Below are positions 17,436-46,973 of a stretch of 64,000 bases of DNA, in pieces. Source of the stretch: a virus; the IMG/VR virus record IMGVR_UViG_3300025087_000044, positions 1 to 64,000 of that record. One strand, 5' to 3'. A program made the translations under genes and the position numbers. The notes beneath the pieces are model-generated. The model made no database searches and was not told the DNA's origin. It saw only the letters and a list, made by a program, of their open reading frames with translations. The stretch's first letter is position 1; every line of letters begins with the position of its first letter.

Positions 17436-17436
17436 A

Positions 17437-31371: not shown

Positions 31372-31647
31372 CTACTTGATTTTACTTAGTTGGTCTTTAA
31401 AGTATCCCGTGTAATTTGAATCCGACAAATACTGTTCGTGTTTTGCTTGAAGAGCTTGCTTAAGAATACCCCACTCTCCACCCTTTCCGGCTTTTATCGA
31501 GGATTTAATTTGTTTAGACACTTGATTGTAATTATCTTTAGTCATCGGAATAGCCGGATAATACCGCATCAAATTCTTATAATAATTTTTCTCATCTGCC
31601 GTATTCTGCTTCCACATTCTATACCGCTTCTTAAGATTTAATGGCAT
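31372..31647 (-). CDS. Basic helical hypothetical protein
   Basis: 91 residues from ATG 31647 (MPLNLKKRYRMW), chosen over an upstream TTG. Rich in Lys and Tyr, with no recognised domain. Second gene of the late operon. Confidence 0.55.
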   Translation of the reverse strand: MPLNLKKRYRMWKQNTADEKNYYKNLMRYYPAIPMTKDNYNQVSKQIKSSIKAGKGGEWGILKQALQAKHEQYLSDSNYTGYFKDQLSKIK

Positions 31648-31652
31648 ATTGT

Positions 31653-31784
31653 TCAATACCCGGGCACTTGATACCCGGCCTCTTTTAATTTTTTTATGTC
31701 TTCAGAACTTAATAAATCAGCAAGATTGACACTCCTCGGGAGCTTATCGTCAGCTTGGCGCTTGGCTTTGTCGTAGTCGTCCAT
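31653..31784 (-). CDS. First gene of the late operon, small MDDYxKAKRQ protein
   Basis: 43 residues beginning MDDYDKAKRQADDKLPRSVN. The same opening (MDDYEKAKRQ) begins the 41-residue protein at 55981-56106, so this is a two-member family. The start lies just after a terminator-like T-run and has no Shine-Dalgarno. Function unknown. Confidence 0.6.
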   Translation of the reverse strand: MDDYDKAKRQADDKLPRSVNLADLLSSEDIKKLKEAGYQVPGY

Positions 31785-31788
31785 ATAC

Positions 31789-31953
31789 AAAAAAAACTCC
31801 GTAAAGAGTTAGTCGTTTTGATGAAAATATGTTGCAATCATATTTTACGAAGCGAGGCCGATAGTTGTAGATAGAGCGGAACACGGCACCCAACCTCGCT
31901 TTCCTGCTCTCGTTAAGAGTGCAAGTATGTTGTGCGTGGCCATTGCTCTTGTC
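31789..31953 (-). ncRNA. Structured leader of the late operon ending in a terminator-like hairpin
   Basis: Between the leftward promoter and the first late gene, the minus strand can form CTCT/AGAG (31907-31919), AGCGAGG/CCTCGCT (31851-31900), AAAATATG/CATATTTT (31824-31846) and finally AACTC/GAGTT followed by eight T (31789-31810). The T-run ends four bases before the ATG of the first gene. This looks like an attenuator or antitermination leader; the control mechanism is inferred. Confidence 0.6.
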
Positions 31954-31960
31954 TGATTAC

Positions 31961-31989
31961 ATTATACAGCATCTATTATTATACAACAA
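31961..31989 (-). promoter_or_regulatory. Leftward promoter of the late operon
   Basis: Minus strand TTGTTG (31984-31989), 17 bp, TATAAT (31961-31966). It faces away from the rightward promoter at 32015-32043, and both flank one DnaA box. It is the only promoter seen ahead of the late genes here. Confidence 0.75.
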
Positions 31990-31997
31990 TACACAGG

Positions 31998-32006
31998 TGT
32001 GGATAA
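31998..32006 (-). promoter_or_regulatory. DnaA box between divergent promoters
   Basis: Perfect TTATCCACA on the minus strand. It lies about 8 bp from the -35 boxes of both divergent promoters, next to the replication-initiator gene. It could serve as a DnaA-dependent origin element or as a regulator of both promoters. Confidence 0.7.
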
Positions 32007-32014
32007 CTTCCTAG

Positions 32015-32043
32015 TAGACAAGATTTGTGGCGGAGTGTATAAT
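32015..32043 (+). promoter_or_regulatory. Rightward early promoter
   Basis: TAGACA (32015-32020), exactly 17 bp, TATAAT (32038-32043). Transcription would start about 32050 and run first through the structured RNA at 32080-32162, then the DnaD-like gene. Confidence 0.8.
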
Positions 32044-32079
32044 GAAATAGTAAATATCCAAAATATGACGATAACAAAG

Positions 32080-32162
32080 TTCTCAAGAGCTTGCAATGAT
32101 ACCGTAAAATCGGTAGCACCTGTCATAGGTGTGGATACATTGTAAGCTCCTGAGAATTTTTT
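32080..32162 (+). ncRNA. Structured leader/ncRNA, copy 1 of a two-member family
   Basis: An 18-bp base-paired stem (TTCTCA/TGAGAA and GAGCTTGCAATG/CATTGTAAGCTC, one A-C mismatch) encloses two hairpins: TACCG/CGGTA with loop TAAAAT, and CACCT/AGGTG. The long stem is followed by six T and then the ATG of the DnaD-like gene. The RNA at 42077-42159 has the same architecture and covarying helices. It can act as a terminator or attenuator; any ligand or partner is unknown. Confidence 0.75.
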
Positions 32163-32165
32163 GTT

Positions 32166-32885
32166 ATGTCAACAGGCTGGGTACGTTTGTACCGAAAATC
32201 TATGAACAGTTCAGTTTTCGAAAACCCCAATATCTGGTATGTCTGGAGTTGGTGTCTTTTAAAAGCGAACCACGAACCACACAAATTTCCCTTTAACGGA
32301 GAGGACATCGAAATCCTCCCCGGGGAATTTATAACGGGTAGAACCGAAGCATTAAAAGAGTTACACCACATATCAGCTCAGAAGTACAGAAATTGTATTA
32401 CATACCTAAAATCAACCAGCAGAATAACCAGCAAAACAACTAACAAATTTAGCTTAATTAAGATAACAAACTGGGATAGCTACCAAGCAAACAACCAGCA
32501 AAACAACCAACAAACAACCAGCCAGCAACCAGCCAGCAACCACATACAAGAATGTAAAGAATGTAAAGAATGTAAGAATGAATACTCTTTGGGATTAGGA
32601 ATTGAATACTGGAATGCCAGACAAGCATGGAACCCCGCAAATGGAAATCCAATAAACAATACCGCCATAAAAAAACTCTTGCCACAATGCAGGAAAGAAA
32701 CAACAAGTCTGGCAAAAATGTGGGATAAACAAGTTCCTTCTCAAGAAGAATGGGAGCGTGCGGTACGTGCGTATATTTTAGAAATTGCCAATAGAAATCC
32801 TCTTAACGATTATTGCCATCACCGGTTTTCAATGTTTGACTTTATAACTCAAAAGAACGGATATTTAAAATTTGTAAACAAGTAA
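32166..32885 (+). CDS. DnaD-like replication initiator / helicase loader
   Basis: 239 residues. The first 100 match the winged-helix domain of phage replisome organisers (GWVRLYRKSMNSSVFENPN, W, KANHEPHKF, GEFITGRTEALKEL). A Gln/Asn/Ser-rich middle contains a threefold ECK repeat (ECKECKECKN). The C-terminal part (EYWNARQAWNP on) is a probable helicase-binding domain. First gene of the rightward operon, just before the primase-helicase. The start has no Shine-Dalgarno and abuts the T-run of the structured RNA. Confidence 0.8.
   Translation: MSTGWVRLYRKSMNSSVFENPNIWYVWSWCLLKANHEPHKFPFNGEDIEILPGEFITGRTEALKELHHISAQKYRNCITYLKSTSRITSKTTNKFSLIKITNWDSYQANNQQNNQQTTSQQPASNHIQECKECKECKNEYSLGLGIEYWNARQAWNPANGNPINNTAIKKLLPQCRKETTSLAKMWDKQVPSQEEWERAVRAYILEIANRNPLNDYCHHRFSMFDFITQKNGYLKFVNK
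32488..32576 (+). repeat. Short direct repeats inside the initiator gene, candidate origin
   Basis: Tandem and near-tandem copies of AACAACCA/CCAGCAAC units, followed by three TGTAAAGAA-type repeats. Iteron-like repeats inside an initiator gene are a known origin layout (for example lambda O). This is a candidate origin by analogy only; low-complexity coding could also explain it. Confidence 0.4.
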
Positions 32886-32891
32886 AAATCT

Positions 32892-34814
32892 ATGGGAACC
32901 ATCTACTGCTTGCTAGATGACACCAAGAAAGTTCCGGGCGCAAAAACTTATCTAAACAAAAACGAACAAGAATTTAAAACGCTTAATGCTCAAGGTTGGG
33001 GTGTGTACTTTTCCGTCAACGAATTTGCGGGCGATCGCAAGACTGAGAATTGCACTAGGTTACGCTATGTTTACGGCGACCTTGATATTGGTAAAGCCGG
33101 AGACGGCCAAACTCGAGAAGAACGCCAAGCTAAAAAGCAGGCACTACTCAAGGAAATTATAGCCAAGTGCGAGCCGACAATGGTAATTGATACGTCTAAC
33201 GGATTACAGCCATTATGGGAACTAGTAGCCGGAGAACCTACTACAGAAAACAAAGAAAGATATGTGCGAGTATTAAAAGGGCTTGTGGCGTGGAGTAAAC
33301 AGCACGGTTGTAAGGCGGACAACGTCTATGACATTTCTAGGATTTTAAGAGTACCAGGTTATGACCACATGAAAGAGGAGCCGTACGCTTGCGAAGTGAT
33401 TTATCAATCCGTTAAAAAATATAATTTAGCCGGCCTCGAGATAATTTTTCCGTTCAAGGAATTGAAAGTTTTACCGGGAATCCCGGAGCATACAGGAGAC
33501 AATCCTGTATTTAGGGAGATTGAACGATTGGATTTCAAGGAAATGGTTATGCGTGCTTTTTCTTCAATTGGTCGTCCTGTAACATTTGACGTTAGTGGAC
33601 ATCTCATTGACCCAATAGGAAAAACAACAGGAACATTTCTTGGCAGACAAGGTAATCGCGATTATTTGGCTTCGTCTTCGCATGAACCATTCAAAGGCAA
33701 CAGAATTACGGCAATAGCGGAAATACTGAATATTACTTATAGCGATGCGTATAAATGGATTTGTCGAGAATATGGTTTGAATTATCAGAAACTGGTACAG
33801 CAAGAAACGAAAACTATTTCAGCAATAAAAAAAGACGGAGTGGAGTTCGTAACAATGAGTGATATTGTAGAAATGGGTTATAAAGAGCTTGTTGCAACGA
33901 ACGCGAATCAAGTTATCTCGTTCGGATACAGTTGGCTTGATGATAAACTGGTTGGAATTTTCCCGTCAGAACTGGTAGTGCTAGGTGGAGAATCGGGGAC
34001 GGGTAAAACAGCATTGGCCACTAACATCATTTACAAAGCCAGCAAAAAGGTTAAATGCGGGATTTATGCTCTGGAAGATAGATTGCCCGATTACGGCATT
34101 AAGGCTTTATTTTACGAAGTGAATAAAATAAAAAAGAATTACGAAGCAGGCTCTAAGGGATACTGGTGGAACGATTTTAGATTGAACGAGATACGAGATA
34201 TTCAATATCCCAGGTATTTGGAGGAAGCTAGAGCCAGCTTGAAAAACGACAATATATTTTTCGCCAAAGTAAACGAGATGATGAGTATAGACTTACTGGA
34301 AACTTTGGTTTACGACCAGATAAGCAAAGGGATAAAATTATTTCTGGTTGACCATTTGCATTACTTTGATATGTCGTCCAAAGAAGACAGCAAAGCGGAT
34401 TATGTGGAAAAAATAATGGTTAGGTTAAAAACATTGCTTAATAAAACCGGGGCTTCGATGATATTGATTGTACATTACAAAAAGTTGGAGGGGAAAAAGC
34501 CGGGTATTGATAGCTTCAAAGACTCCGTGGCAATTCCGCAAAATGCAAACTATGTTATCAACTTATGGCGTGAACGTTCCTCGGACAAAGCAAACGCAAC
34601 GGAGCAGTTGGGCGACAGAATAATTGAAAAGAAATTTATTACTCACTTTATGATTCCCAAAGTTCGCAATCCAAACGGAGAAGGGACATATAAAGCGATA
34701 TGGAACGCCGACAAAGGAGATTATGAAGACGAAAAGTATGCTTGGAAATTTGGAACTTCTACAAAATCAGAGGATATAATAATCGGAGAACTTCTAAATA
34801 ATATAAAATTTTAA
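32892..34814 (+). CDS. Primase-helicase: AEP-type primase fused to a RecA/DnaB-like ATPase
   Basis: 640 residues. The N-terminal archaeo-eukaryotic-type primase has VYGDLDIG (DxD at 63-65), a central DTSNGLQPLWEL, and SRILRVPGYDH. The C-terminal ATPase has Walker A GGESGTGKT (about 365-373) and Walker B FLVDHLHYF (about 483). It probably primes and unwinds DNA at the phage fork. No DNA polymerase gene was found in the window, so host replication enzymes are likely needed. Confidence 0.85.
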   Translation: MGTIYCLLDDTKKVPGAKTYLNKNEQEFKTLNAQGWGVYFSVNEFAGDRKTENCTRLRYVYGDLDIGKAGDGQTREERQAKKQALLKEIIAKCEPTMVIDTSNGLQPLWELVAGEPTTENKERYVRVLKGLVAWSKQHGCKADNVYDISRILRVPGYDHMKEEPYACEVIYQSVKKYNLAGLEIIFPFKELKVLPGIPEHTGDNPVFREIERLDFKEMVMRAFSSIGRPVTFDVSGHLIDPIGKTTGTFLGRQGNRDYLASSSHEPFKGNRITAIAEILNITYSDAYKWICREYGLNYQKLVQQETKTISAIKKDGVEFVTMSDIVEMGYKELVATNANQVISFGYSWLDDKLVGIFPSELVVLGGESGTGKTALATNIIYKASKKVKCGIYALEDRLPDYGIKALFYEVNKIKKNYEAGSKGYWWNDFRLNEIRDIQYPRYLEEARASLKNDNIFFAKVNEMMSIDLLETLVYDQISKGIKLFLVDHLHYFDMSSKEDSKADYVEKIMVRLKTLLNKTGASMILIVHYKKLEGKKPGIDSFKDSVAIPQNANYVINLWRERSSDKANATEQLGDRIIEKKFITHFMIPKVRNPNGEGTYKAIWNADKGDYEDEKYAWKFGTSTKSEDIIIGELLNNIKF

Positions 34815-34817
34815 TCT

Positions 34818-35048
34818 ATGAAAATCACAATCGAAGCGATAGAAAAAATAAAAACTCTCGACACGGTCGAGTTCCGCAAGCGGTTCGAAGAGCAAGGATT
34901 GCAGGCCGGTAAAATATCCGAGCAACTGTTCATGGAACTTTCCGCGATGTGGGTGGAACTGCGACAAGGCTGTACAGCCCGAACTGTGTTCGATAAGTGG
35001 GCGGACGGCGCGTGGATTCCTGCCATTAACGGCTACGAAAAAATATGA
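34818..35048 (+). CDS. Small hypothetical protein
   Basis: 76 residues, alpha-helical. It begins MKITIEAIEKIK, the same opening as the broken gene at 37882 (MKITIKAE). No domain recognised. The stop overlaps the next gene (ATGA). Confidence 0.6.
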   Translation: MKITIEAIEKIKTLDTVEFRKRFEEQGLQAGKISEQLFMELSAMWVELRQGCTARTVFDKWADGAWIPAINGYEKI

Positions 35049-35188
35049 GACCAATAACACCCGAAGAGAAGTCATTGAGCAATGCTCTGGATAAGATAAT
35101 CAATCAGATAGACGAAACAAAAACGCCCGAACGCCTGAACTTTTTGAAAGCGTTGAAAGCTAAGTGCGAGGAACTATTAAACTTGTAA
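35045..35188 (+). CDS. Small helical hypothetical protein
   Basis: 47 residues (MRPITPEEKSLSNALDKI), helical and charged, starting in an ATGA overlap with the previous gene. Likely the last gene before the next promoter. Function unknown. Confidence 0.55.
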   Translation: MRPITPEEKSLSNALDKIINQIDETKTPERLNFLKALKAKCEELLNL

Positions 35189-35207
35189 CTTTAGTCTTAA
35201 AACAGAC

Positions 35208-35252
35208 TTATCCACAAAAACCTCTTGCAATATCCGTTGAACGTGCTATACT
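35208..35252 (+). promoter_or_regulatory. Rightward promoter with DnaA box
   Basis: TTATCCACA at 35208-35216, then CTTGCA (35224-35229), 17 bp ending in TGC, and TATACT (35247-35252). The same order of DnaA box, -35 and extended -10 occurs at several other promoters here. The gene at 35277 follows. Confidence 0.7.
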
Positions 35253-35276
35253 GGTTGTAGGAGATAACCAATTTAT

Positions 35277-35438
35277 ATGATGACGCAAAAAGACATGATA
35301 CGGCTTGCCCAGAAGTCAGTAACGGCAAGACGGCGCAAGAACCGAATATACGCAATCAGCTTGAAGACCGGGCGGAGCGTACAGGAGCTGGTGAAGCTGG
35401 AGAATAAGGACGTGGACATGATGTGGTGCAACCTTTAA
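35277..35438 (+). CDS. Small basic protein, first gene after the promoter
   Basis: 53 residues (MMTQKDMIRLAQKSVTARRR), basic N-terminus and an acidic C-terminal stretch (LENKDVDMM). A tandem ATGATG start is present, and GGAG lies 14 nt upstream. No domain recognised; possible small DNA-binding protein. Confidence 0.55.
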   Translation: MMTQKDMIRLAQKSVTARRRKNRIYAISLKTGRSVQELVKLENKDVDMMWCNL

Positions 35439-35513
35439 AAAAATCACTGCTCTACTCCTATCGCAACCGCCACACCGCAATGATAGCAGGCGGAAGACAG
35501 GAAAGAGCGGTAA

Positions 35514-35596
35514 GCTTAATCTCTGAATGAGCCAGATATGTGGAATAACTCCTAGCAGGGTGCGCTCCACATGTCTGGCGGATTAAGAGATTAAGC
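35514..35596 (+). ncRNA. Long nested hairpin RNA in a gene-free stretch
   Basis: GCTTAATCTCT (35514) pairs with AGAGATTAAGC (35586-35596). Inside, GCCAGA/TCTGGC and ATGTGGA/TCCACAT continue the helix to a 21-nt loop. A second hairpin with GGGGAG and CTCTCCC arms follows near 35618-35668. No gene is seen in 35439-35684. The coding direction of neighbours suggests transcription on the plus strand. Confidence 0.6.
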
Positions 35597-35684
35597 AATA
35601 TCAATAATCAATCCTTTGGGTGGCAGGGGAGTCGGCGGTTAGTTGATTAGCCTCCTCTCCCGTTGCCCTAAGGACAGTAACAAT

Positions 35685-35936
35685 ATGACAAAGAAAGAGT
35701 ACATCGCCTTAGTTGGCGACAGTCCAAGCTCGTTGTTTGGCGGCGATTGGAAGAACGAGCTGGCGGAGCTTGAAGACCTGGCAATACGAGATGGCGTAGC
35801 GAGACGGTGCGGATTAGTTCCTTGCGGGAAGAATTCCGAGGGTGAGCAGGAGTACATCGGCACGAAGCAAGAGTGGGACAGGTACGATGACGATAACGCT
35901 TCCGATGTGCTTTACGAGGAAGGAGCGGATAAATAA
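35685..35936 (+). CDS. Acidic hypothetical protein
   Basis: 83 residues from ATG 35685 (MTKKEYIALVGDSPSSLFGG), chosen because the upstream frame runs through the hairpin region. Acidic C-terminus (DRYDDDNASDVLYEEGADK). No domain recognised. Confidence 0.6.
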   Translation: MTKKEYIALVGDSPSSLFGGDWKNELAELEDLAIRDGVARRCGLVPCGKNSEGEQEYIGTKQEWDRYDDDNASDVLYEEGADK

Positions 35937-35937
35937 T

Positions 35938-36090
35938 ATGTCCACCCATAGCGATTGGCAACGGTCGCAGTCCAATAGCAATTACGCCGAGTGCGAGGTG
36001 TGCGGCCGCCACCTGCCAGCAGGAACTGTCTGTTACGGGAACGACGAAGGAGAATTTGTTTGTGAGAATTGCATGCCTGATAACGAATAA
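35938..36090 (+). CDS. Small zinc-ribbon protein
   Basis: 50 residues with CEVC (about 19-22) and CENC (about 43-46), plus a Gly-rich centre. A four-cysteine zinc ribbon. One base after the previous stop. Function unknown. Confidence 0.6.
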   Translation: MSTHSDWQRSQSNSNYAECEVCGRHLPAGTVCYGNDEGEFVCENCMPDNE

Positions 36091-36094
36091 CCAT

Positions 36095-36334
36095 ATGGAT
36101 GACCAAAAAATACTATGCCAACATTGCGGAACGGAAAAGGTATTCCACAACGGAGGAGTGCTTAACGGCAAAGGCTATCGGGCGTTCTTCTACTGCCCTG
36201 CATGCGAGATAGTTCAAAAGTACATGCCGATAGCACTAGGTGACAAGTGTCCTGTGTGTGGCGAGCCTGCTATATTGGGCAAGTATGGAGCGTACTGCAA
36301 GAATTGTTACATCAAGAATAAAACCAATAATTAA
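36095..36334 (+). CDS. Double zinc-ribbon protein
   Basis: 79 residues from ATG 36095. Four CxxC pairs: CQHC, CPAC, CPVC and CKNC. Two zinc ribbons in tandem. No catalytic part is present. Perhaps a nucleic-acid or protein-binding regulator. Confidence 0.65.
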   Translation: MDDQKILCQHCGTEKVFHNGGVLNGKGYRAFFYCPACEIVQKYMPIALGDKCPVCGEPAILGKYGAYCKNCYIKNKTNN

Positions 36335-36374
36335 GCCAATAGTCGCCAATTAGGCGCACGGCACAAAAAATAAT

Positions 36375-36965
36375 ATGGAAAACACATTCCTCCCAAGTAC
36401 TTATGAGCCACCCGCGACCGAGAGCAAGTATTTGAAGATTGAGCAGGGCAAGACTAAGTTCCGAATCCTGTCGAACTCTATTCAAGGCTGGGTGGACTGG
36501 CAGGAAAAAGACGGCAAGCGAAAGCCTATCCGTACTCGAGAATGGCAACCTGCAATTGACCCCGAGCGTCCGTCAAAACATTTCTGGGCGTTCGCAGTGT
36601 GGGATTATGCCGCGCAATCCGTCAAAGTCATGGAGATAACGCAGAAGACCATTCAGCAGGCCATTCTAGAACTCTACAAGAGCGAGGATTGGGGCGACCC
36701 GAAAGGTTATGACATCGAGATAACACGTGAGGGCGAGAAAATGGAAACAAAGTACCACGTCATTCCGAAACCCCCGAAACCGCTTGACACTGTAGTGGCG
36801 GAAGCGAGAGACAGCATGAACGTTGACTTGGAACAGCTGTTTGTGGGAGGCGACCCGTTTGGTGAAGCCAGCCACAATGCCCCTGTGAGCCCCTACAATG
36901 CCCCAGGACGAACGGAAGAGCCGTTACCTGAGGAATCGGTCACGGTGGCAGGAATTCCCTTCTAA
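36375..36965 (+). CDS. ssb: Single-stranded DNA-binding protein
   Basis: 196 residues. The N-terminal 130 form an OB-like region with FRILSNSIQGWVDWQ, HFWAFAVWDY and VIPKPPKP, as in gp32/gp2.5-type phage SSBs. The C-terminal tail is acidic and proline-rich and ends in the hydrophobic tip GIPF, like the protein-binding tip of SSBs. Position near the replication genes supports this. Confidence 0.75.
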   Translation: MENTFLPSTYEPPATESKYLKIEQGKTKFRILSNSIQGWVDWQEKDGKRKPIRTREWQPAIDPERPSKHFWAFAVWDYAAQSVKVMEITQKTIQQAILELYKSEDWGDPKGYDIEITREGEKMETKYHVIPKPPKPLDTVVAEARDSMNVDLEQLFVGGDPFGEASHNAPVSPYNAPGRTEEPLPEESVTVAGIPF

Positions 36966-37061
36966 ACGAAGTTTTAACTGCCCCTTTCCCGTTTTCGCAA
37001 CTTTTATGCGACTGCACAATCAGTCCACCGGTGCGGAGACGGGGTGGGGCGGTATAATAAT

Positions 37062-37253
37062 ATGACCAACGATTTAATTTCAGAAACAATCAAAATAACA
37101 AAAGAAGAAACCGCGCTTAGTCCGCAAGAAGAATACGTTCTGGAACACGCTTTAAGATTTTTCGCCCAGAGAATAAGATACGACTTACTGGTCATTGCAG
37201 GCAAGGGCGAATACGAAGACATGAGGCGTGAGGTGGAGAATTATTTTCAATAA
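37062..37253 (+). CDS. Small hypothetical protein
   Basis: 63 residues from ATG 37062 (MTNDLISETIKITKEE), preferred over an upstream in-frame ATG because of the usual AATAATATG context. Helical. No domain recognised. Confidence 0.6.
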   Translation: MTNDLISETIKITKEETALSPQEEYVLEHALRFFAQRIRYDLLVIAGKGEYEDMRREVENYFQ

Positions 37254-37254
37254 T

Positions 37255-37716
37255 ATGCCAAAACTAAATGAATTTAAAGTAGGCGACAAAGTGAGACTTA
37301 ATATTCCCGGAGATAGTGATAATGGCAAAGAGGGTGTGGCTGGGTGCATTCATGATGATTGTTTGTACCTTGAATCAAATGAGTGGAATTTCAATGGCCT
37401 TCAATGCAAAGAACACGGGTCTAAAAAATGTTGGATATGTGAAATTAATTCTAGTGGTGAAGTTAGTGCAAGTAGCAAGAATGGTGTTTTAGAACTAATT
37501 AACTCTAATATCAACTTTATGAATCTCAAAGAAAAGTTCGTGCAAGTGTTTTTAAAAGAGCCTGAAAAATCTTTCCGCAAAGCGGAGATAACCAATGGAG
37601 ATGGGATACTAACAACTGACGGTCAAAGCGTCTTTCTTGGCTGGTTACTGAAAAAGCACGGTGATGAGTTTAAGACGGAAGTGGTTGATGAACTCTTGAA
37701 AGAAAAGGAGGCGTAA
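37255..37716 (+). CDS. Hypothetical protein
   Basis: 153 residues from ATG 37255. The N-terminal half has a beta-barrel-like start (FKVGDKVRLNIPG) and four Cys (CIHDDC, CKEH, CWIC) that could form a zinc site. The C-terminal 60 residues (NLKEKFVQVFLKEPEKSF) look like a separate helical domain. No family assigned. Confidence 0.6.
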   Translation: MPKLNEFKVGDKVRLNIPGDSDNGKEGVAGCIHDDCLYLESNEWNFNGLQCKEHGSKKCWICEINSSGEVSASSKNGVLELINSNINFMNLKEKFVQVFLKEPEKSFRKAEITNGDGILTTDGQSVFLGWLLKKHGDEFKTEVVDELLKEKEA

Positions 37717-37717
37717 C

Positions 37718-37825
37718 ATGGCTATCAAGTTATCGTGGCAGGCGTGGCTGTTGCTCACAATGCAAGCCCGACTGGACTTGCTCTATGGCGAGTGCGCCGG
37801 GTACTGGACGCTTGACGTTATTTAA
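37718..37825 (+). CDS. 35-residue hypothetical peptide
   Basis: ATG 37718 follows a strong AGGAGG at proper spacing, rare here, which supports translation. The peptide is Trp- and Leu-rich (SWQAWLLLTMQARLDLLYG) and could be amphipathic or membrane-linked. A perfect GCCCCTG/CAGGGGC hairpin lies just after it at 37835-37854. Confidence 0.5.
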   Translation: MAIKLSWQAWLLLTMQARLDLLYGECAGYWTLDVI

Positions 37826-37881
37826 TCCTCACACGCCCCTGTCATATCAGGGGCTAAAAAAACTTTAACTGTACTAAACAT

Positions 37882-38000
37882 ATGAAAATCACAATCAAAG
37901 CGGAGCCAACCTGTGCAGAGCCGACCTGTGCAGAGCCAAAATTAAAATTGCGCAAAAAGCGGAGTTGTTAAAAACCTTAGGTATTATTATTGAGGAGTAA
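37882..38000 (+). pseudogene. Small gene with repeats and an apparent frameshift
   Basis: ATG 37882 reads MKITIKAEPTCAEPTCAEP and stops at 37971. Another frame continues AQKAELLKTLGIIIEE to TAA 37998-38000. The opening matches the gene at 34818. A GAGCC-ACCTGTGCA-type repeat lies where the frame is lost. It is probably a decayed paralogue with a repeat expansion. Confidence 0.45.
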
Positions 38001-38027
38001 GAACTTAACTAACTAACATAAAACAGT

Positions 38028-38486
38028 ATGCAAACAAAACAAGCAATTCAAGCAAGTGCGAATGTAGTGCGAATAACATCTATCTCTGCTGGCGATCTGT
38101 ATAAAAGATTTGACGAATCTTATGATGATAGGGTTTATTACGGAATTGTCAAAAAAGTCCATAATGACGGAGAAAAAACGGTAATTGAGGCAGTAGAATA
38201 CAGATATTCATGGAACTCCTTGGAAGTGGATTATAAAATTATTAGAGGAGAAAAAGACTTTACTATTTTCCCCGCCACACAAGAAGAATTTAATCTTGAA
38301 TTGGGTAAGGCAAAAAAGAAAAAAATTCAAGAAATAAAAGAATCAGAAGAAAAGATAGAAGAAAACAAAAAAGTCTTAGAAGAAATCAGCAAAATGGAAT
38401 CGGGAGAACTAATGGCAGGCCTAAAAAGCGTTAGCTATGCAGAATTAACGCAAGAACAATATAACGAAAGAATGCTTTTGAAATAA
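38028..38486 (+). CDS. Hypothetical protein with coiled coil
   Basis: 152 residues. The first 95 are mixed alpha/beta (VVRITSISAGDLYKRFDES). Residues 95-130 form a Lys/Glu coiled coil (KIQEIKESEEKIEENKK). No domain recognised. Confidence 0.6.
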   Translation: MQTKQAIQASANVVRITSISAGDLYKRFDESYDDRVYYGIVKKVHNDGEKTVIEAVEYRYSWNSLEVDYKIIRGEKDFTIFPATQEEFNLELGKAKKKKIQEIKESEEKIEENKKVLEEISKMESGELMAGLKSVSYAELTQEQYNERMLLK

Positions 38487-38505
38487 CTAAATAATATAAA
38501 AAAGT

Positions 38506-38859
38506 ATGAATGAAGAACTAACAGTCAATGGAATTGAGTATGTTCCCAAGAGTTCAGTTGCGGAGAAGTTTGAAGGTTTGAAATATGTAATAGCAAGAAC
38601 TTATTCGGCAGGCGTTTTTGCTGGATATTTAAAGAGTAGGAACGGCCTAGAAGGAGTTTTACTGAAGGCTCGCAGATTGTGGTATTGGGCTGGAGCGGCC
38701 AGTCTGTCTCAATTGGCAATGGAAGGAACTTCGAAACCGACAGAATGTAAATTTCCGTGCGAAGTGGACGCAATCGAATTGACGCAGATTATTGAAATTT
38801 TGGATGTAACAAAAAAAGCTCAAGACTCAATTAACGCCGTAAAAATATGGAAAGAATAA
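38506..38859 (+). CDS. DUF6948-like phage protein
   Basis: 117 residues. YVIARTYSAGVFAGYL, then LLKARRLWYWAGAASLSQLA and CKFPCEV match a conserved phage protein I recall as DUF6948. Function unknown. Its end overlaps the Gly-rich repeat gene; the start of that gene is read from the KIWKE codons here. Confidence 0.65.
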   Translation: MNEELTVNGIEYVPKSSVAEKFEGLKYVIARTYSAGVFAGYLKSRNGLEGVLLKARRLWYWAGAASLSQLAMEGTSKPTECKFPCEVDAIELTQIIEILDVTKKAQDSINAVKIWKE

Positions 38860-39134
38860 ATGACGGTTCCGGTTCCGGTTCCGGTGACGGTTACGGTTAC
38901 GGTGACGGTGACGGTGACGGTTCCGGTTACGGTTACGGTGCCGGAACCGGTTCCGGTTCCGGTTACGGTGACGGTTACGGTGACGGTTCCGGTGACGGTT
39001 ACGGTTACGGGGACGATGACGGTTACGGTGACGGTTACGGTGACGGTTCCGGTTACGGTTACGGTGACGGTGACGGTGACGGTTCCGGTGACGGTGACGG
39101 TTCCGGTGACGGTTACGATTCCGGTAACGGTTAA
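38847..39134 (+). CDS. Gly-(Ser/Asp/Tyr) repeat protein
   Basis: 95 residues, almost entirely alternating Gly with Ser, Asp or Tyr (for example GYGDGDGDGSGYGYGAG). The Gly codon is always GGT or a close variant and the partner is TCC, GAC or TAC. It starts inside the previous gene. The protein would be disordered and acidic with Tyr side chains. Function unknown. Confidence 0.6.
   Translation: MERINDGSGSGSGDGYGYGDGDGDGSGYGYGAGTGSGSGYGDGYGDGSGDGYGYGDDDGYGDGYGDGSGYGYGDGDGDGSGDGDGSGDGYDSGNG
38866..39132 (+). repeat. Degenerate hexanucleotide tandem repeat
   Basis: About 44 units of GGT-NNC-type hexamers (GGTTCC, GGTGAC, GGTTAC and rare GGTGCC or GGAACC) run without interruption. Substitutions are confined to two of six positions, keeping the frame. 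The repeat is the whole body of the gene at 38847. Confidence 0.85.
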
Positions 39135-39181
39135 AATCCAGACCTGTTGGCGGAGCAGGCCAAAACCGCCTGATTAAATTT

Positions 39182-39343
39182 ATGAAACTTAAAACACATA
39201 TCCCCTCACTGGTTTGTGCCGCGTTCTCGGCAGTAACCACTGGCAGCATGCTTGCGTATAACGTACCGCTTTGGTTAATAATCCCGATCGCTCTAGTGGG
39301 TTCTTTGTCTGTTGGTGTCGTAATGCTCATTATACTTGACTAG
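39182..39343 (+). CDS. Small membrane protein
   Basis: 53 residues with two hydrophobic segments (LVCAAFSAVTTGSMLAY; WLIIPIALVGSLSVGVVMLI). It ends with TAG, showing that TAG is a real stop here. Function unknown. Confidence 0.6.
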   Translation: MKLKTHIPSLVCAAFSAVTTGSMLAYNVPLWLIIPIALVGSLSVGVVMLIILD

Positions 39344-39352
39344 CCCACCTTC

Positions 39353-39502
39353 ATGCCGCAAACTTGGAGGCCGGGGGAGAGGAAATTAACTCGATTCCTC
39401 AACAGCCTGCAAAATAACTTTACTCTACAGAACTGGCTCCTACCAACAAACAACAATGTCCAAACAATTCCTTGCACCACCACATTGAATAAAAAAATAT
39501 GA
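39353..39502 (+). CDS. Small hypothetical protein
   Basis: 49 residues (MPQTWRPGERKLTRFLNSL), basic and Asn/Thr-rich. The stop overlaps the next start in an ATGA junction, which is the main support. No domain recognised. Confidence 0.45.
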   Translation: MPQTWRPGERKLTRFLNSLQNNFTLQNWLLPTNNNVQTIPCTTTLNKKI

Positions 39503-39780
39503 TTAAATTGAAAATTGAATTTTTTGATAGAGTTTCACAAAGTGGAGAAACTGGATTTAGAAGCGCGGAAATTCAAATTCCAGATGAGGCAATGTTACTT
39601 TCTAACAAGCCAACCTTTAATGGAGAAATTTCAAACGAACGCCATCAATTTGTTATGGATGAACTCGAAAGAATAGTTAATGAAACAGAGGGTGTCAATT
39701 ATGGAGAAATTAGTGAGATTGAAAGCGATATCCCAATTAGACAAAGATTTGTAATTATAACATGTCGAAAAATTCAATAA
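39499..39780 (+). CDS. Small hypothetical protein
   Basis: 93 residues, acidic alpha/beta (IKLKIEFFDRVSQSGETG). No domain recognised. Standard A-rich start context; overlaps the preceding small gene by 4 nt. Confidence 0.6.
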   Translation: MIKLKIEFFDRVSQSGETGFRSAEIQIPDEAMLLSNKPTFNGEISNERHQFVMDELERIVNETEGVNYGEISEIESDIPIRQRFVIITCRKIQ

Positions 39781-39953
39781 TAAAAAATCCTATGACACTT
39801 TCAGAATTAAAAAAACACTTGGAGGTGATACGTCTAAGAAATGGCGTTGATTCAGACAGAGACCATCAGGAAGTTGATGATATGCTTATCGGTTATATAA
39901 ACGATGGCGAGGTAACTGAGTTGTTTGATTCAATTGAAAAGTGGTATTCCTGA
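39762..39953 (+). CDS. Small hypothetical protein
   Basis: 63 residues from ATG 39762, or 53 from ATG 39792, which has the more usual TATG context and avoids an 18-nt overlap. Helical and acidic (LSELKKHLEVIRLRNGVDS). No domain recognised. Confidence 0.55.
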   Translation: MSKNSIIKNPMTLSELKKHLEVIRLRNGVDSDRDHQEVDDMLIGYINDGEVTELFDSIEKWYS

Positions 39954-39991
39954 CCTAATAATAATTGGAAAATAAATTAAAATAAAATCTT

Positions 39992-40066
39992 ATGAGTAAA
40001 TTCAAAGCGGGAATGATTATCGAGAACGCTGACGAGGGTTCGACTCCCTCAGTTGACTTGCACTAA
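39992..40066 (+). pseudogene. Truncated copy of the gene at 40245, fused to a tRNA 3' end
   Basis: The frame starts MSKFKAGMIIENA, nearly identical to the protein at 40245 (MSKFKAGMIIKNA). After 13 codons it runs into a 30-nt tRNA-derived segment and stops at 40064-40066. The usual leader of the next gene follows at once. It is a recombination product, probably not functional. Confidence 0.8.
40033..40062 (+). repeat. 30-nt exact copy of a tRNA 3' end
   Basis: The 30 nt equal the reverse complement of 17432-17461: the T arm (GAGGGTTCGACTCCCTC), the acceptor 3' strand (AGTTGAC) and a few flanking bases of the tRNA-like gene at 17437. Both junctions are sharp. tRNA 3' ends are frequent integration and recombination sites, but no integrase gene is visible in the window. 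Confidence 0.9.
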
Positions 40067-40084
40067 ATTTAATAGGAGAATAGT

Positions 40085-40243
40085 ATGACCGAAGAGCAAG
40101 AGTTTTTAGACAAAGAAATCCAAGTCTGCAATGACGAGATGGATAAGGCCATCAAGACCAGTTCCGCGGCGCAAGACGTATTGAAGTTCTACGCCCGGCG
40201 CAAAGAGTTTTTAACTAAGATACTAAATTTAATAGGAGAATAA
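40085..40243 (+). CDS. Small hypothetical protein
   Basis: 52 residues (MTEEQEFLDKEIQVCNDEMD), helical. It is preceded by CTAAATTTAATAGGAG, the same leader with Shine-Dalgarno that occurs again before 40245, so the leader is duplicated. No domain recognised. Confidence 0.55.
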   Translation: MTEEQEFLDKEIQVCNDEMDKAIKTSSAAQDVLKFYARRKEFLTKILNLIGE

Positions 40244-40244
40244 T

Positions 40245-40619
40245 ATGTCAAAATTCAAAGCGGGAATGATAATCAAGAACGCTGCAGGTAAGCGCAAGAT
40301 ACTCGGCCAGTGCGGTGAAGTGTTCTTTATTAGCGAGGAAGATGATTTTGAAACAGCAGTATCCGAGATATACACAGAAGAAGAATTGCTGAAAGTTAAT
40401 TTTAAACCCGTCGAAGAGCCGTGGAAACCTGAGAAGAACAGAGAATATATTTTTCTTGACCTCGCTGGAGAACACGCTTCTACGATTTGGATAAATGGCA
40501 AAAGCGACAATTATCTCCTCTCCATCGGCAACGTCTTTCCACCCGAGAACAACGAAGAACTCATTGCCGAGTACAAGCGCAAGTTGCAGGAGATGTTTAA
40601 GCCAGAGTCTTACAAGTAA
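40245..40619 (+). CDS. Hypothetical protein
   Basis: 124 residues, acidic alpha/beta (KFKAGMIIKNAAGKRKILGQ; EYIFLDLAGEHAS). The beginning suggests a small beta-barrel or SH3-like fold. Its 5' end is duplicated at 39992. An AGGAG Shine-Dalgarno is present. No family assigned. Confidence 0.6.
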   Translation: MSKFKAGMIIKNAAGKRKILGQCGEVFFISEEDDFETAVSEIYTEEELLKVNFKPVEEPWKPEKNREYIFLDLAGEHASTIWINGKSDNYLLSIGNVFPPENNEELIAEYKRKLQEMFKPESYK

Positions 40620-40627
40620 AAAATAAT

Positions 40628-40816
40628 ATGGAAAAAACATTTTGCGATATTTGCGGGGTGGAGATGAAGAAGCTAAACTATTACATTTACCGGCTAATGC
40701 ACGAAAAACCGGGACTTGATATGTGCGATTTTGCCGTGTCAAGCCATCTGGATGTCTGCCAAGATTGCTGTGAAAAATTCATTACAAAAGAAAACCGCGT
40801 TAATCAAGGGAAATAA
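40628..40816 (+). CDS. Small zinc-finger protein
   Basis: 62 residues with CDIC (6-9) and CQDC (about 44-47), a zinc-finger pair. Its last residues (TKENRVNQGK) are the same as the end of the next protein, so the 3' end of the gene has been shared by recombination. Confidence 0.6.
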   Translation: MEKTFCDICGVEMKKLNYYIYRLMHEKPGLDMCDFAVSSHLDVCQDCCEKFITKENRVNQGK

Positions 40817-40821
40817 AAAAT

Positions 40822-41004
40822 ATGAAAAAAGGCCAACAATTGGCGTGTATATTGCGAGAACTTGCAGAAAACATTGCCATAATCAGAGACAAGGGGACTG
40901 ATTGGAGCGAATGTATGTTTGATGATATCGAAGAAGTTTGTCGTGAGTTTGACAAAAGCGATAAATTCACAACCAAAGAGAATCGAGTTAATCAAGGGAA
41001 ATGA
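40822..41004 (+). CDS. Hypothetical protein, full-length copy of the gene at the window start
   Basis: 60 residues (KKGQQLACILRELAENIAII, then DWSECMFDDIEEVCREF). Nearly identical to the fragment at 1-146. The C-terminus (TKENRVNQGK) also ends the preceding protein. No domain recognised. Confidence 0.65.
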   Translation: MKKGQQLACILRELAENIAIIRDKGTDWSECMFDDIEEVCREFDKSDKFTTKENRVNQGK

Positions 41005-41230
41005 TTATGACAATATCAGATAAAGAATTGGGGGAAAAGCTTCTCAAGTGGATTAGGCGGTATCATCAATATTGCCATAAAGTTATGGTTGAGTTGCCCG
41101 ATGGAAACATTACAACGCAATACAAAGAAGGCGACCTTATGATATGCAAAGCTTGTAAAGATGAGATAGCTTTACTAGAAGAAGAAATAAACAAAAGAAA
41201 TAAAAAGATAATTAAAAATAGACTTGTATG
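40859..41230 (+). repeat. Second copy of window bases 1-379
   Basis: Bases 1-140 and 40859-41000 are almost identical, and the following gene is alike at both sites with scattered substitutions. The gene order is conserved across the copy. This is a dispersed direct duplication about 40 kb apart; the left copy starts beyond the window. Confidence 0.85.
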
Positions 41231-41231
41231 A
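41001..41231 (+). CDS. Small hypothetical protein with CxxC, paralogue of 143-379
   Basis: 76 residues; an internal ATG at 41007 is an alternative start. It shares most residues with the protein at 143-379, including CKAC. Its stop overlaps the next start (ATGA). Function unknown. Confidence 0.65.
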   Translation: MIMTISDKELGEKLLKWIRRYHQYCHKVMVELPDGNITTQYKEGDLMICKACKDEIALLEEEINKRNKKIIKNRLV

Positions 41232-41422
41232 AAACTGTCAAGTGTAAAAACTGTTATGATAAAAGTTTCGCCAGCGTTTATTAAGCTGACAGTTATGCCA
41301 TGCCTGATTTTTACGGCGATAAAAAATACCGAGTCCAAAAAGTGGGAATAAGAATTAAATACTGCACTTGCCTAAAAGGCAAACGCATGAAAGCTTATGA
41401 CAAACAAATTAAAAAAAGATAA
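41228..41422 (+). pseudogene. Small zinc-ribbon gene with one in-frame TAA
   Basis: From an ATGA-overlapping ATG the frame reads MKTVKCKNCYDKSFASVY, then TAA (41282-41284), then continues through PDFYGDKKYRVQKVGIRIKY, CTC and a basic end to TAA 41420. CKNC and CTC would complete a metal site only if the stop were read through. Either a nonsense-mutated gene or a readthrough case. Confidence 0.5.
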
Positions 41423-41750
41423 ATTCCTAAAAGCATGGCGATATCTTGAAAGTCTTAAATACTTTAATCCGCCCGAGATAGCTGGACTTTTCGGATTCGG
41501 CAATTTCGATATAATGGTCAGCAGTGAGACGACCCCAAAAGGAACCAATGTTTACGTTGAATTGAACACGGGCAGTTGGAACGAGAAGTATAGTTGCTTT
41601 TCTCACGATTACAGACTAGACGTTTCATGTCCTACATTCGAGGATGCCATAATCGAGCTTGCCAAGAAATGCAAAAAGTTAGGCCGCAAGCTTAATCATT
41701 CAGTAAGCGAGACGATAAAGTTCAAGAAAATAAAACATCTCCTAAAATGA
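41397..41750 (+). CDS. Hypothetical protein
   Basis: 117 residues (AWRYLESLKYFNPPEIAGLF; VSSETTPKGTNVYVELNTG). Alpha/beta with a basic C-terminus. No domain recognised. It overlaps both neighbours. Confidence 0.6.
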   Translation: MTNKLKKDKFLKAWRYLESLKYFNPPEIAGLFGFGNFDIMVSSETTPKGTNVYVELNTGSWNEKYSCFSHDYRLDVSCPTFEDAIIELAKKCKKLGRKLNHSVSETIKFKKIKHLLK

Positions 41751-41947
41751 GTTACGAATATCAAATGGTTCTCCTCGACGTTAAAGTTGAGGCGATAAAC
41801 CAGAGGCGCGATAAGTTACTGAGAGGTGGAATCAGTTACGATAAATTGTGGTTGGATTTTAATCTTGAAAAGCTATATATCGAGGCAGAGCAAATCATAC
41901 TAAAATTAAAGCAAATTACCACTTATCCACACAATTTCCAAAAATGA
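41747..41947 (+). CDS. Small helical protein, related to 2061-2243
   Basis: 66 residues with LEKLYIEAEQIILKLKQI, like the C-terminus of 2061-2243. It overlaps the previous gene by 4 nt. A DnaA box (41933-41941) lies within its last codons. Confidence 0.6.
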   Translation: MSYEYQMVLLDVKVEAINQRRDKLLRGGISYDKLWLDFNLEKLYIEAEQIILKLKQITTYPHNFQK

Positions 41948-41988
41948 CTTAAACAACCCCTTTACAAATCTATTCAATCTGCTACAAT
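41933..41988 (+). promoter_or_regulatory. Rightward promoter with DnaA box, ahead of structured RNAs
   Basis: TTATCCACA (41933-41941), then ACCCC, TTTACA (41961-41966), 16 bp ending in TGC, and TACAAT (41983-41988). It drives the structured RNA at 42077 rather than an immediate gene. Confidence 0.65.
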
Positions 41989-42076
41989 TTAATTAGGCAA
42001 AAAATAAGCTAACCTTACAGAAAATAACTTTCTAGTGCCTAAACAATATAAGCGATGTCAAATCGTTTCGTGTGTT

Positions 42077-42159
42077 AATCTCATTTAAGATGTGTCTTGC
42101 CTTTAAAACGGCAGTACCAACACGGGTACATTTGACACACATCTTAGCTGAGATTTTTT
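42077..42159 (+). ncRNA. Structured ncRNA, copy 2 of the family at 32080
   Basis: Outer stem AATCTCA/TGAGATT and TAAGATGTGT/(AC)ACATCTTA encloses TGCC/GGCA with loop TTTAAAAC and GTACC/GGTAC. The outer stem ends in six T, then GTTAT, as in copy 1. The core AAAACGGCAGTACC corresponds to AAAATCGGTAGCACC at 32107; CGGC/CGGT and AGT/AGC differ in ways that keep pairing. No gene starts right after it. Confidence 0.75.
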
Positions 42160-42165
42160 GTTATT

Positions 42166-42360
42166 TATATCCTGTTCGGAATAAAAGAGATATAACGGTC
42201 ACACGCTAACGCTACGACCCAAACTGTCCCTCCCGATTCCGAGCAGGATATAGGTAACTATAGTCTTCCCCCAGAGTTGCTAGCTACTCTATAAGCGGAC
42301 TTAAAAAGGCTTATGTCAAGCTAATCCTTGGGCGTGCAGGAACCGCTCTAAATAGCCTGC
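42166..42360 (+). ncRNA. Second structured RNA region after copy 2
   Basis: TATATCCTG plus CGGAAT (42166-42182) pairs with ATTCCG plus CAGGATATA (42236-42252), 15 bp with a 2x2 internal loop. Downstream are AGAGT/ACTCT (42273-42290), ATAAGC/GCTTAT (42291-42314) and GCAGG/CCTGC (42336-42360). No gene is seen in 41948-42553 otherwise. Family unknown. Confidence 0.55.
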
Positions 42361-44843: not shown

Positions 44844-46973
44844 ATGTTTACCTATAAAAAAGATGGATTCAATGTTCCAGTCAAAAGTTGGATACCAGAA
44901 AAAGATTATTATTCTGACGTTGCTATGGTTGAACAGTGCGAGAATTTGGCAAGGTTGCCTTTTTCTTTCGGACACGTTGTCTTGTGTCCTGACGGACATG
45001 TTGGTTTCGGTTGCCCAATCGGTTCAGTCGTTGCAACTAAAGCTGTAATAATTCCCAATGTTTGTGGGGTAGATATTGGAGCTGTAGATAGGGATACTGA
45101 GATTTTAACTAAAAGTGGATGGATTACTATAGATAAATATAACAACATTGATGATGTCTTAATTTATGATAATTACAAGCAAACTTCCTTTTTTAGCAAG
45201 CCATTGTTGTATATTGTAAAACCTTGTGAAGATTTTACGGAATACAAAAGCAAATATGGATTAGACCAGGTTTTGAGTGACGAGCATAGAATGTTGGTTT
45301 ATGAAGGGTATGGAAAAGATAGAACAAACAATACTTATTTTTGTAAGGACTTTAGGGAAAAATTATCAAAATTAAAAAAACAAGATTATTATTCAGTAAG
45401 AACGACGTTCGCAACAAATGAAAAGGGAATAAAATTAACAGATGAGCAGATAGCTATTATGGTAATGGTTTCTGCTGATGGTCATATTAGAAAACAGTCT
45501 AGTGTATATACAAATGTAGAGATGCATTTTAAAAAGAGTAGAAAAATAAATCGTTGTAAGGTTTTGTTGAATAAAGCAAAAGTTAGTTTTAAAGAATATG
45601 ACCACAGTGATAAGACAAAGTCAATAATCTTTAAGTTAGATTGGGAGTGTAAGAAAGAATTAACTGCTTTATATCTATGTAATCAGCATCAGGCAAAAGT
45701 TGTTTTTGACGAGTATTTGTATTGGGATGGAACCATTGATAAAAAAAGAAATCATAAAATGTATTCCACAACAAAGAAAGTAAACGCCGATGTTGTTCAG
45801 TATATATGTGCCGTGAATGGAGTTAGGGCTGGCATACATCTTCAAAGTTATAAAAATGAAAATTGGAATGATTCATATAGCGTGTATCAAACGAGAAACG
45901 AATATGTTGGATTCAGTCGTCCCCAAAAAATAAAGATACCAAACGGTAACAAGTATTGTTTTGTTGTTGAAACTGGATATTTTGTTGCTAGAAGGAATAA
46001 CAAGATATTTGTTACTGGAAACTGTGGAATGATTGCGGTTAAAACATCTCTTACTGAATTGGACAGAGAAACATTAAAAAAGATTCTTGGTAATATAAGA
46101 CAAACGATTCCTGTAGGATTCGAACACCACAAAACAGACCAAGACATTACCCTCATGCCGAATTATGGGTTAGGAGCAGGTGGCGAAATAACAGGAAGAG
46201 AGTACATGTCAGCCCTAAGGCAGATTGGAACACTTGGTGGAGGTAATCATTTTATCGAAATCCAAAAAGGAGATGATGGGCATATCTGGATAATGATTCA
46301 TTCGGGTTCGAGAAACTTAGGAAAGCAAGTTGCTGATTATTATAACAAAGTCGCTATTGAGTTAAACGAAAAATATCACTCCTCAGTACCTAATGAATGG
46401 CAGTTAGCGTTTTTGCCTGTTGACAGTCAAGAAGGACAGAATTATATTTCCGAGATGAATTATTGCGTTGAGTTTGCGTTGGCTAATAGACAGTTAATGA
46501 TGAGCAGGATAATTGATATTTTCTGCAAGCATACAGAATTGGCTGCTAAGGGTTGGGAACCGCCAATCAATATAGCTCACAATTATGCCAAGCAAGAAAA
46601 TCATTACGGACAAAATTTATGGGTTCACAGAAAAGGAGCAACGTTAGCGCAAGACGGAACAATAGGAATAATCCCTGGCTCACAAGGTTCAAGTTCGTTC
46701 ATCGTTAAGGGCAAGGGAAGTAAAGAATCATTTAATTCATGTTCACATGGTGCAGGAAGGCTTATGAGCAGAACCAAAGCCATGGCCACTCTTAACCTTG
46801 AAGATGAGATAAAGAAACTTGACGACCAAGGTATTTTGCATGCAATCAGAGGCAAGAAAGACCTTGATGAGGCAAGCGGTTCTTATAAGAACGTAGAAGA
46901 AGTAATGAACAATCAATCTGATTTAGTGGATATTTTAGTAAAATTAAGCCCAATGGGTGTCGTGAAAGGATAG
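44844..46973 (+). CDS. rtcB: RtcB-type RNA ligase with intein
   Basis: 709 residues, of which about 314 (80-393) are an intein. The extein has RtcB signatures: PDGHVGFGCPIGSV, GVDIG joined to CGMIAV after splicing, GTLGGGNHFIEI, HSGSR and SCSHGAGR. RtcB joins 2',3'-cyclic phosphate or 3'-phosphate ends to 5'-OH ends, as produced by many tRNA-cleaving toxins. The N-terminus appears to have been supplied with the HNH insertion upstream. An Rnl2-type ligase gene and several tRNA genes lie in the same genome. Confidence 0.93.
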   Translation: MFTYKKDGFNVPVKSWIPEKDYYSDVAMVEQCENLARLPFSFGHVVLCPDGHVGFGCPIGSVVATKAVIIPNVCGVDIGAVDRDTEILTKSGWITIDKYNNIDDVLIYDNYKQTSFFSKPLLYIVKPCEDFTEYKSKYGLDQVLSDEHRMLVYEGYGKDRTNNTYFCKDFREKLSKLKKQDYYSVRTTFATNEKGIKLTDEQIAIMVMVSADGHIRKQSSVYTNVEMHFKKSRKINRCKVLLNKAKVSFKEYDHSDKTKSIIFKLDWECKKELTALYLCNQHQAKVVFDEYLYWDGTIDKKRNHKMYSTTKKVNADVVQYICAVNGVRAGIHLQSYKNENWNDSYSVYQTRNEYVGFSRPQKIKIPNGNKYCFVVETGYFVARRNNKIFVTGNCGMIAVKTSLTELDRETLKKILGNIRQTIPVGFEHHKTDQDITLMPNYGLGAGGEITGREYMSALRQIGTLGGGNHFIEIQKGDDGHIWIMIHSGSRNLGKQVADYYNKVAIELNEKYHSSVPNEWQLAFLPVDSQEGQNYISEMNYCVEFALANRQLMMSRIIDIFCKHTELAAKGWEPPINIAHNYAKQENHYGQNLWVHRKGATLAQDGTIGIIPGSQGSSSFIVKGKGSKESFNSCSHGAGRLMSRTKAMATLNLEDEIKKLDDQGILHAIRGKKDLDEASGSYKNVEEVMNNQSDLVDILVKLSPMGVVKG
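45081..46022 (+). other. Intein in RtcB, Ala1 type with LAGLIDADG domain
   Basis: Starts at Ala80 (AVDRDTEILTKSGW) instead of Cys or Ser. LSDEHRML fits block B, VSADGHIRK is a LAGLIDADG-like motif, and CFVVETGYFVARR is block F. It ends TGN before Cys394 of the extein; the usual penultimate His is Gly. The insertion is at the active-site GVDIG/CGM junction. Splicing is expected but not certain given these changes. Confidence 0.85.

Follow-up and report, generated by a model that had tools for sequence, protein, structure and literature searches.

A three-way-junction RNA between a phage early promoter and a helicase-loader gene, probably a switch or an immunity-type brake for phage replication

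A structured RNA element lies between a sigma70-like early promoter and the gene of a DnaD-like helicase loader, and it is probably an RNA switch or an immunity-type brake on virus replication. We favour, with about even confidence, the view that the element attenuates transcription of the early replication operon as a bistable RNA and uses an antisense-type self-recognition. The element was studied in the window, by which we mean the whole 64,000-nt stretch of DNA analysed (positions 1 to 64,000 of the record IMGVR_UViG_3300025087_000044). The features discussed below are listed in Table 1.

Table 1. Coordinates of the element, its leader, its neighbours and the second copy in the window
Feature	Position	Strand	Basis
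sigma70-like early promoter, TAGACA-17-TATAAT	32015-32043	+	consensus scan, 11/12
Leader segment 1, TATCCA, complement of J3/1	32055-32060	+	leader/loop duplex; exact-block and pair-count tests
Leader segment 2, TATGACG, complement of the P3 loop; contains the start codon of the leader ORF	32064-32070	+	
Possible leader ORF, MTITKFSRACNDTVKSVAPVIGVDTL*	32065-32145	+	one shared phase open throughout the family, with an ATG in frame in three members
5' arm of stem P1	32077-32098	+	fold
Hairpin P2, UAAAA in the loop of every member	32100-32115	+	fold
Hairpin P3, variable loop TGTCATA at 32121-32127	32116-32132	+	fold, alignment
Junction strand J3/1 plus last base of P3, TGGATA	32132-32137	+	fold
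3' arm of stem P1	32138-32159	+	fold
U6 tract, intrinsic-terminator-like end	32157-32162	+	sequence; in 4/4 members
DnaD-like helicase loader, first gene downstream of the element	32166-32885	+	phrog_2514, E 9e-31
Block 91% identical to L076, flanking genes unrelated	31645-32168	.	alignment; divergent promoters, leftward leader, 43-aa ORF (31653-31784, -)
Leader of copy 2, complement of its own J3/1 (42130-42136) and P3 loop (42119-42124)	42057-42073	+	
Copy 2, phage B	42077-42155	+	fold, covariance model; same plan as copy 1

The element (32077-32159, + strand) is predicted to fold into a closing stem of 21 bp, P1, that encloses the two hairpins P2 and P3 in a three-way junction. In P1, AAGUUCUCA-A-GAGCUUGCAAUG is paired to CAUUGUAAGCUC-C-UGAGAAUUU. 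P2 has the sequence UACCG-UAAAAU-CGGUA, P3 the sequence GCACCUG-UCA-UAGGUGU, and GGAUA forms the junction strand J3/1. A minimum free energy of -40.2 was calculated for a 91-nt stretch compared to -16.5 ± 2.9 for shuffled sequences (z = -8.05), and none of 200 shuffles was as good. The fold bears out the original prediction of a long stem with a U-run and two small hairpins in a three-way junction. Its placement agrees as well: a start about 30 nt after the promoter and an end at the initiator ATG had been claimed, and we find a gap of 33 nt between promoter and stem, while the next gene starts with its ATG at 32166, three bases past U6. The second gene after the element encodes a DnaB-like helicase. 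Because the + strand genes of the phage that carries this copy, phage A, continue to 40.8 kb and then, on the circular map, from 1 to 2914, the element appears to head an early operon of about 11.6 kb.

The same prediction held that a second locus at 42.1 kb has the same plan. This plan is indeed present there (z = -6.27 against shuffles), but in a different phage, as the 99,113-base IMG/VR record (G000) is chimeric. In it phage A, a circular genome of about 40.9 kb, is joined to a second phage, B, at position 40986 of the window. The first 127 bases of the record recur exactly at 40859-40985, and the last 127 bases are an exact repeat too, being the reverse complement of the stretch from 17884 (record end, G000 98570-99113). 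Since both repeats are exactly 127 nt long, they can be understood as the trace of an assembler with k = 127 walking between circular genomes. A record of 42,171 bases from a different sample (G002) represents phage A in permuted form, with window 33665-41216 followed by window 1-33991, and is identical to the window across the first 500 bases of the latter. The terminase of phage B is 95% identical to that of L076, which also carries the element. As copies 1 and 2 belong to different phages, comparing them is a comparison between phages, with no duplication involved.

Several other observations were made along these genomes. G002 carries, at one of its ends, an in-frame insertion of 895 bp in the Walker A motif of the DnaB-like helicase gene (G002 41186-42080 vs window 33991-33999), which begins with C and ends with HHN and is thus intein-like, and the other strain is without the insertion. 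The RtcB gene of phage B (window 44844-46973, 709 aa) is apparently split by an intein or a similar insert. Directly 3' of copy 2, at 42165-42258 and within a gene-free stretch of about 500 nt in phage B, a hairpin of 20-odd bp encloses about 45 nt (z = -6.4). A long GA/GY-coding repeat of TGACGGT-like units at window 38847-39177 contains open frames on both strands, and the ORF calls made there look like repeat artefacts. Phage A further shows two tandem odd tRNA predictions (window 17286-17436, - strand), one called with a two-base anticodon and the other stop-reading with the anticodon TTA.

Four members of the family were found in total, namely in phage A, phage B, L066/L076 (IMGVR 3300009285_000603) and L085. 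A covariance model trained on two sequences only (A and L066), the E-values of which are rough, scored 31 bits for copy 2 (E = 2e-4 in a search of 829 kb) and 24.3 bits for L085. L085 (terminase 68% identical) has an entirely different stem sequence, and its element was found from structure alone. In all members the closing stem consists of 6-9 outer and 9-12 inner base pairs separated by a 1x1 mismatch; P2 has 16 nt and UAAAA in its loop, P3 has 14-20 nt, and the junction strands measure 0-2, 0-1 and 5-7 nt. Three independent stem sequences follow this one plan, with U6 in all four members. Three members (A, L076 and L085) sit between a promoter and a DnaD-like loader gene; the gene in L076 is only about 22% identical to that of phage A, and the one in L085 belongs to another family. 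The copy in phage B is not followed by a helicase-loader gene. MAFFT fails on the stems of different members, and the formal count of covarying pairs covers A vs L076 only.

Searches for further relatives were carried out at the levels of sequence, structure and genomic neighbourhood. None of 4227 Rfam models, riboswitches included, matched at gathering level and nothing credible was obtained at the permissive level, the weak matches being microRNA or snoRNA models far under their cut-offs. BLAST against named phages returned no homologue, and an exact 25-mer had no match in genome contigs. Beyond the known phages, the exact 17-mer of P2 gave only chance matches and an unrelated repeated motif after tRNA genes in viral contigs. 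Around the 17-mer match in L077, L078, L081 and L082, a different conserved motif, GAATTAACTAAGATACCGTAAAATCGGTAGGTGGTGATTC..., stands right after a tRNA-like sequence. A pattern of the P2-P3 core matched 23 stretches, none of them a new member, and scanning 1.25 Mb for terminator-like two-branched structures yielded no further one with this geometry. One candidate, L043 2494-2577, was rejected: its energy is similar, but its hairpins and junction do not match the plan. Only L066 and L085 carry the element among the relatives of the helicase loader (69 and 21 loci) and of the terminase (41 viral and 7 genomic loci). The covariance model R1 found nothing new over 80 records, which is weak evidence because the same search missed copy 2. 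Within the searched data, the RNA family is real but small. The proposal of a new structured RNA family is supported by three independent stems that share one plan and by the lack of a credible Rfam match, and the homologues covary (four members only) in a structure that is not terminator-only.

All four members have the anatomy of an intrinsic terminator, with a stable stem and a U tract directly after it. Their terminator scores of 18 to 31 are clearly positive. The original prediction had offered three options, a riboswitch-like attenuator, an antitermination element comparable to HK022 put sites and an independent sRNA. An attenuator is the best supported of these, as U6 lies between promoter and gene in three phages. 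If P1 were stabilised or opened by a metabolite or phage protein bound at the junction, the conserved P2 loop and junction lengths would be accounted for, but J3/1 and the P3 loop, the parts expected to form the pocket, are variable and no Rfam riboswitch matched, so that we regard this reading as very unlikely. The put RNA of HK022 comprises about 70 nt folded into two stem-loops, and it binds the zinc-binding domain of the RNAP beta' subunit (PMC9378689). The element resembles putL and putR as a structured nascent RNA directly downstream of an early phage promoter. However, it has one closing stem ending in U6, whereas put has two stem-loops, no closing stem or U6, and the opposite expected effect (PMC9378689). 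The suggested comparison with put, the two stem-loops of which act on RNA polymerase, is not supported, and a put-like antitermination RNA that modifies RNA polymerase is barely credible here.

Two further explanations have to be weighed against the same anatomy. The long stem and U6 would suit a plain intrinsic terminator or fixed attenuator, one that stops most transcripts constitutively and whose three-way junction plays no part in regulation. Such a terminator needs neither a conserved junction geometry nor a UAAAA loop in P2 in three lineages, and it needs no covarying complementarity to the leader, which makes it an improbable account. A long inverted repeat could also act at the DNA level, as a replication origin or as a recombination or protein-binding site, given that both DNA strands of the element fold well and replication genes adjoin it. 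On the other hand, U6 is on one strand only in all members, the stem of each member contains one wobble pair that allows pairing only in the + strand RNA, and the complementarity to the leader makes sense as RNA. We therefore consider a DNA-level element to be most unlikely.

In the block shared by A and L076, about 7 differences were found within 31654-32011, and the P1 and P2 sequences are identical. The divergence in the element region is located in the promoter and leader (32012-32074), the P3 loop and J3/1. Three of the four phages (A, L076 and B) have a promoter-proximal leader whose sequence complements both J3/1 and the P3 loop. In phage A, UAUCCA pairs with UGGAUA (J3/1) and UAUGACG with UGUCAUA (P3 loop); in L076, UGCCUA pairs with UAGGCA and UACGUUUC with GAAACGUG; in phage B, GUCAAAU pairs with AUUUGAC and CGUGU with ACACG. 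When the segment-1 pairs of A and L076 are aligned, 3 of 5 are changed on both sides, 2 are unchanged and 0 are broken, a count from two rows for which a shuffle control is uninformative. When the partner is shifted by 1 to 3 columns, only 0-50% remains paired. As judged from the aligned sequences, the leader/loop pairing is preserved between A and L076 through compensatory changes.

This pairing was discovered post hoc and was examined with cognate and non-cognate controls. Compared to shuffled leaders, the energy of the cognate duplex is significant in A (p = 0.003), L076 (p < 0.001) and B (p = 0.011) and not significant in L085 (p = 0.098). Non-cognate combinations are unremarkable, with the one exception of the B leader and the L076 loops (p = 0.036). 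An ordered exact-block test, which asks for a 6-mer complement of J3/1 and, at most 6 nt on, a 5-mer complement of the P3 loop, gave chance rates of 2e-4 (A), 6.5e-5 (L076) and 2e-3 (B), and L085 did not pass it. In a genome-wide duplex scan, complements of the loops stronger than the leader exist, and no outstanding second target of the seqC type was found close downstream. A duplex between copies 1 and 2 was equalled by 10 of 200 shuffles, and its energy comes mostly from the stem. The block also contains a leftward leader (about 31955-31784, - strand, within 31645-32011), identical in A and L076 and followed by a terminator-like AACTCTTTACGGAGTTTTTTTT and the 43-aa ORF, which has no known family. 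This leftward leader may be a second regulatory RNA; its pairing with the element is no better than that of shuffles (80/200).

An open reading frame also runs through the leader. All four members keep the P2 codon phase NCC NNN AAA NNG G open over the length of the element and have the other two phases closed, with a chance of about 5% for a shared phase (0.60 x 0.295 x 0.297, three independent lineages). In A, L076 and L085 the promoter is followed by an ATG in this frame (chance 10-15% each), and in these three the leader ORF runs into the terminator-like stem. The difference in length of 3 nt between A and L076 maintains the frame. Phage B has no ATG in the shared phase, but carries an overlapping ORF of seven codons, MSNRFVC*, that starts in the paired segment and ends just before P1; the alternative there is a frame started by GTG. 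Shine-Dalgarno motifs are rare in the genes of phages A and B (6/29 and 1/18, loose 4-mers included), so that their absence from the leader ORF is no argument against its translation. On these sequence features, a role for the leader ORF is plausible. Both the leader ORF and the leader/loop pairing go beyond the original prediction.

Folding of the nascent RNA of phage A in silico showed the leader-bound fold, in which the 5' arm of P1 pairs internally, to be optimal from 32137 to 32145, and the terminator fold to win once the 3' arm emerges. L076 behaves alike. In phage B the switch is only partial, and the leader's own hairpin is preferred at most lengths.

From the computed structure, homologues, U6, position, covarying complementarity and open leader frame, we infer termination, regulation, a role of translation and an action in cis or trans in the following way. 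P1 and U6 would form an intrinsic terminator and a conserved scaffold, on which P2 and the three-way junction would keep J3/1 and the P3 loop exposed. Before the 3' arm of P1 is made, J3/1 and the P3 loop would be bound by the leader, and the 5' arm would fold on itself; after the 3' arm has emerged, the terminator fold would prevail unless something holds it off. Pairing of the leader, either in cis or in trans by already terminated RNAs, would mask the start codon of the leader ORF. If the leader ORF is translated, the ribosome would block P1 and the operon would be transcribed, and if it is not, transcription would end ahead of the helicase-loader gene. The outcome would be a self-limiting, phage-specific control of replication genes. 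Block and release of translation would be the most natural read-out, since the leader ORF starts inside the paired leader. Because both partners are on one transcript, action in cis (as a timing switch) and in trans (as negative feedback or immunity) would fit alike. Against this attenuator stand L085, which lacks the leader/loop pairing, and phage B, where the nascent leader is mostly self-folded and neither a loader gene nor an ATG in the shared phase is present. The leader is also not the top complement of the loops genome-wide, the pairing is a post hoc finding, and two of the only four members (A and L076) share a recently exchanged block.

A related explanation, less probable in our view but a serious one, is that the main product, a short RNA some 110 nt long with its end at U6, acts in trans for immunity or copy control. 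J3/1 and the P3 loop would then bind the leaders of other transcripts, of the same or a superinfecting phage, and force their termination, and the difference between A and L076 would be heteroimmunity. The terminator fold leaves the recognition parts exposed, and these are the variable parts and have a matched leader, in a regulatory block that is otherwise near-identical in A and L076. Pairing in cis would fit equally well with leader and loops on one RNA, however, and the genome-wide scan brought up no outstanding second target of the seqC type. An independent sRNA, as in the original prediction, may also be made: a transcript terminated after about 110 nt would qualify, and its exposed loops are complementary to its own leader.

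Two known systems lend weight to such an RNA. In phage P4, according to the summary in PMC4825925, the replication genes are regulated likewise: a leader RNA halts their transcription by pairing with upstream and downstream sites. The CI RNA of P4 with seqA and seqC resembles the element as a structured RNA complementary to an upstream leader segment of the same transcript, located in a replication-operon leader, and in premature termination, which is predicted for the element (PMC4825925). A complement to the upstream leader of a replication operon is present in A and L076; in B the complementarity is there with no replication-loader gene behind it. Unlike the P4 RNA, the element is itself an intrinsic-terminator-like stem with U6; it has no processing site and no sequence relation to that RNA, and no downstream seqC was seen. 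The c4 RNA (RF01695), the basis of the heteroimmunity of P1 and P7, is a parallel for the recognition loops, because it is a small structured RNA with complementary stretches in its loops that cover a translation start, and the difference between A and L076 resembles that between P1 and P7 (PMC12197685). Loops complementary to an ATG-bearing leader were found in A, L076 and B and not in L085. The element targets its own leader before the helicase-loader gene, whereas c4 targets an antirepressor mRNA, and a search of the A, B, L076 and L085 records with the C4 model stayed empty up to E = 10.

Two other systems share parts of this arrangement. In the pyr leader of E. coli, advancing ribosomes suppress the terminator (PMC5021804), and the element resembles a pyrBI-type attenuator in that a leader ORF runs through the terminator and ribosomes could block the hairpin. 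In contrast to pyrBI, the element has a three-way junction and a matched leader/loop pairing, precedes no nucleotide-biosynthesis gene and is not homologous. IsrK of prophage Gifsy-1 is similar in that one phage promoter gives rise to a short terminated RNA and a read-through mRNA, and that translation is controlled by RNA isoforms (PMC4825925); it concerns other genes, and no sequence or structural match to the element was found. The element belongs to none of the P4 CI/seqA, c4, pyrBI and put families.

If the attenuator reading is right, phages of uncultured communities control their replication by a base-pairing attenuator, the specificity of which can be read from the sequence as a constant scaffold with a matched pair of leader and loop. 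To our knowledge, RNA-based phage immunity and copy control are known mainly from P4 and P1/P7, and they would thereby extend to an unrelated scaffold. The example also illustrates that what looks like a duplicate within one genome can arise from faulty assembly and mask a comparison between phages. More tentatively, the element may represent a new phage RNA-immunity family in which a conserved three-way-junction terminator scaffold carries exchangeable loops, the P3 loop and J3/1, that read their own leader. Unrelated phages of one community would then have swapped the whole block with the recognition patches changing in step, and heteroimmune types would arise by RNA base pairing alone.
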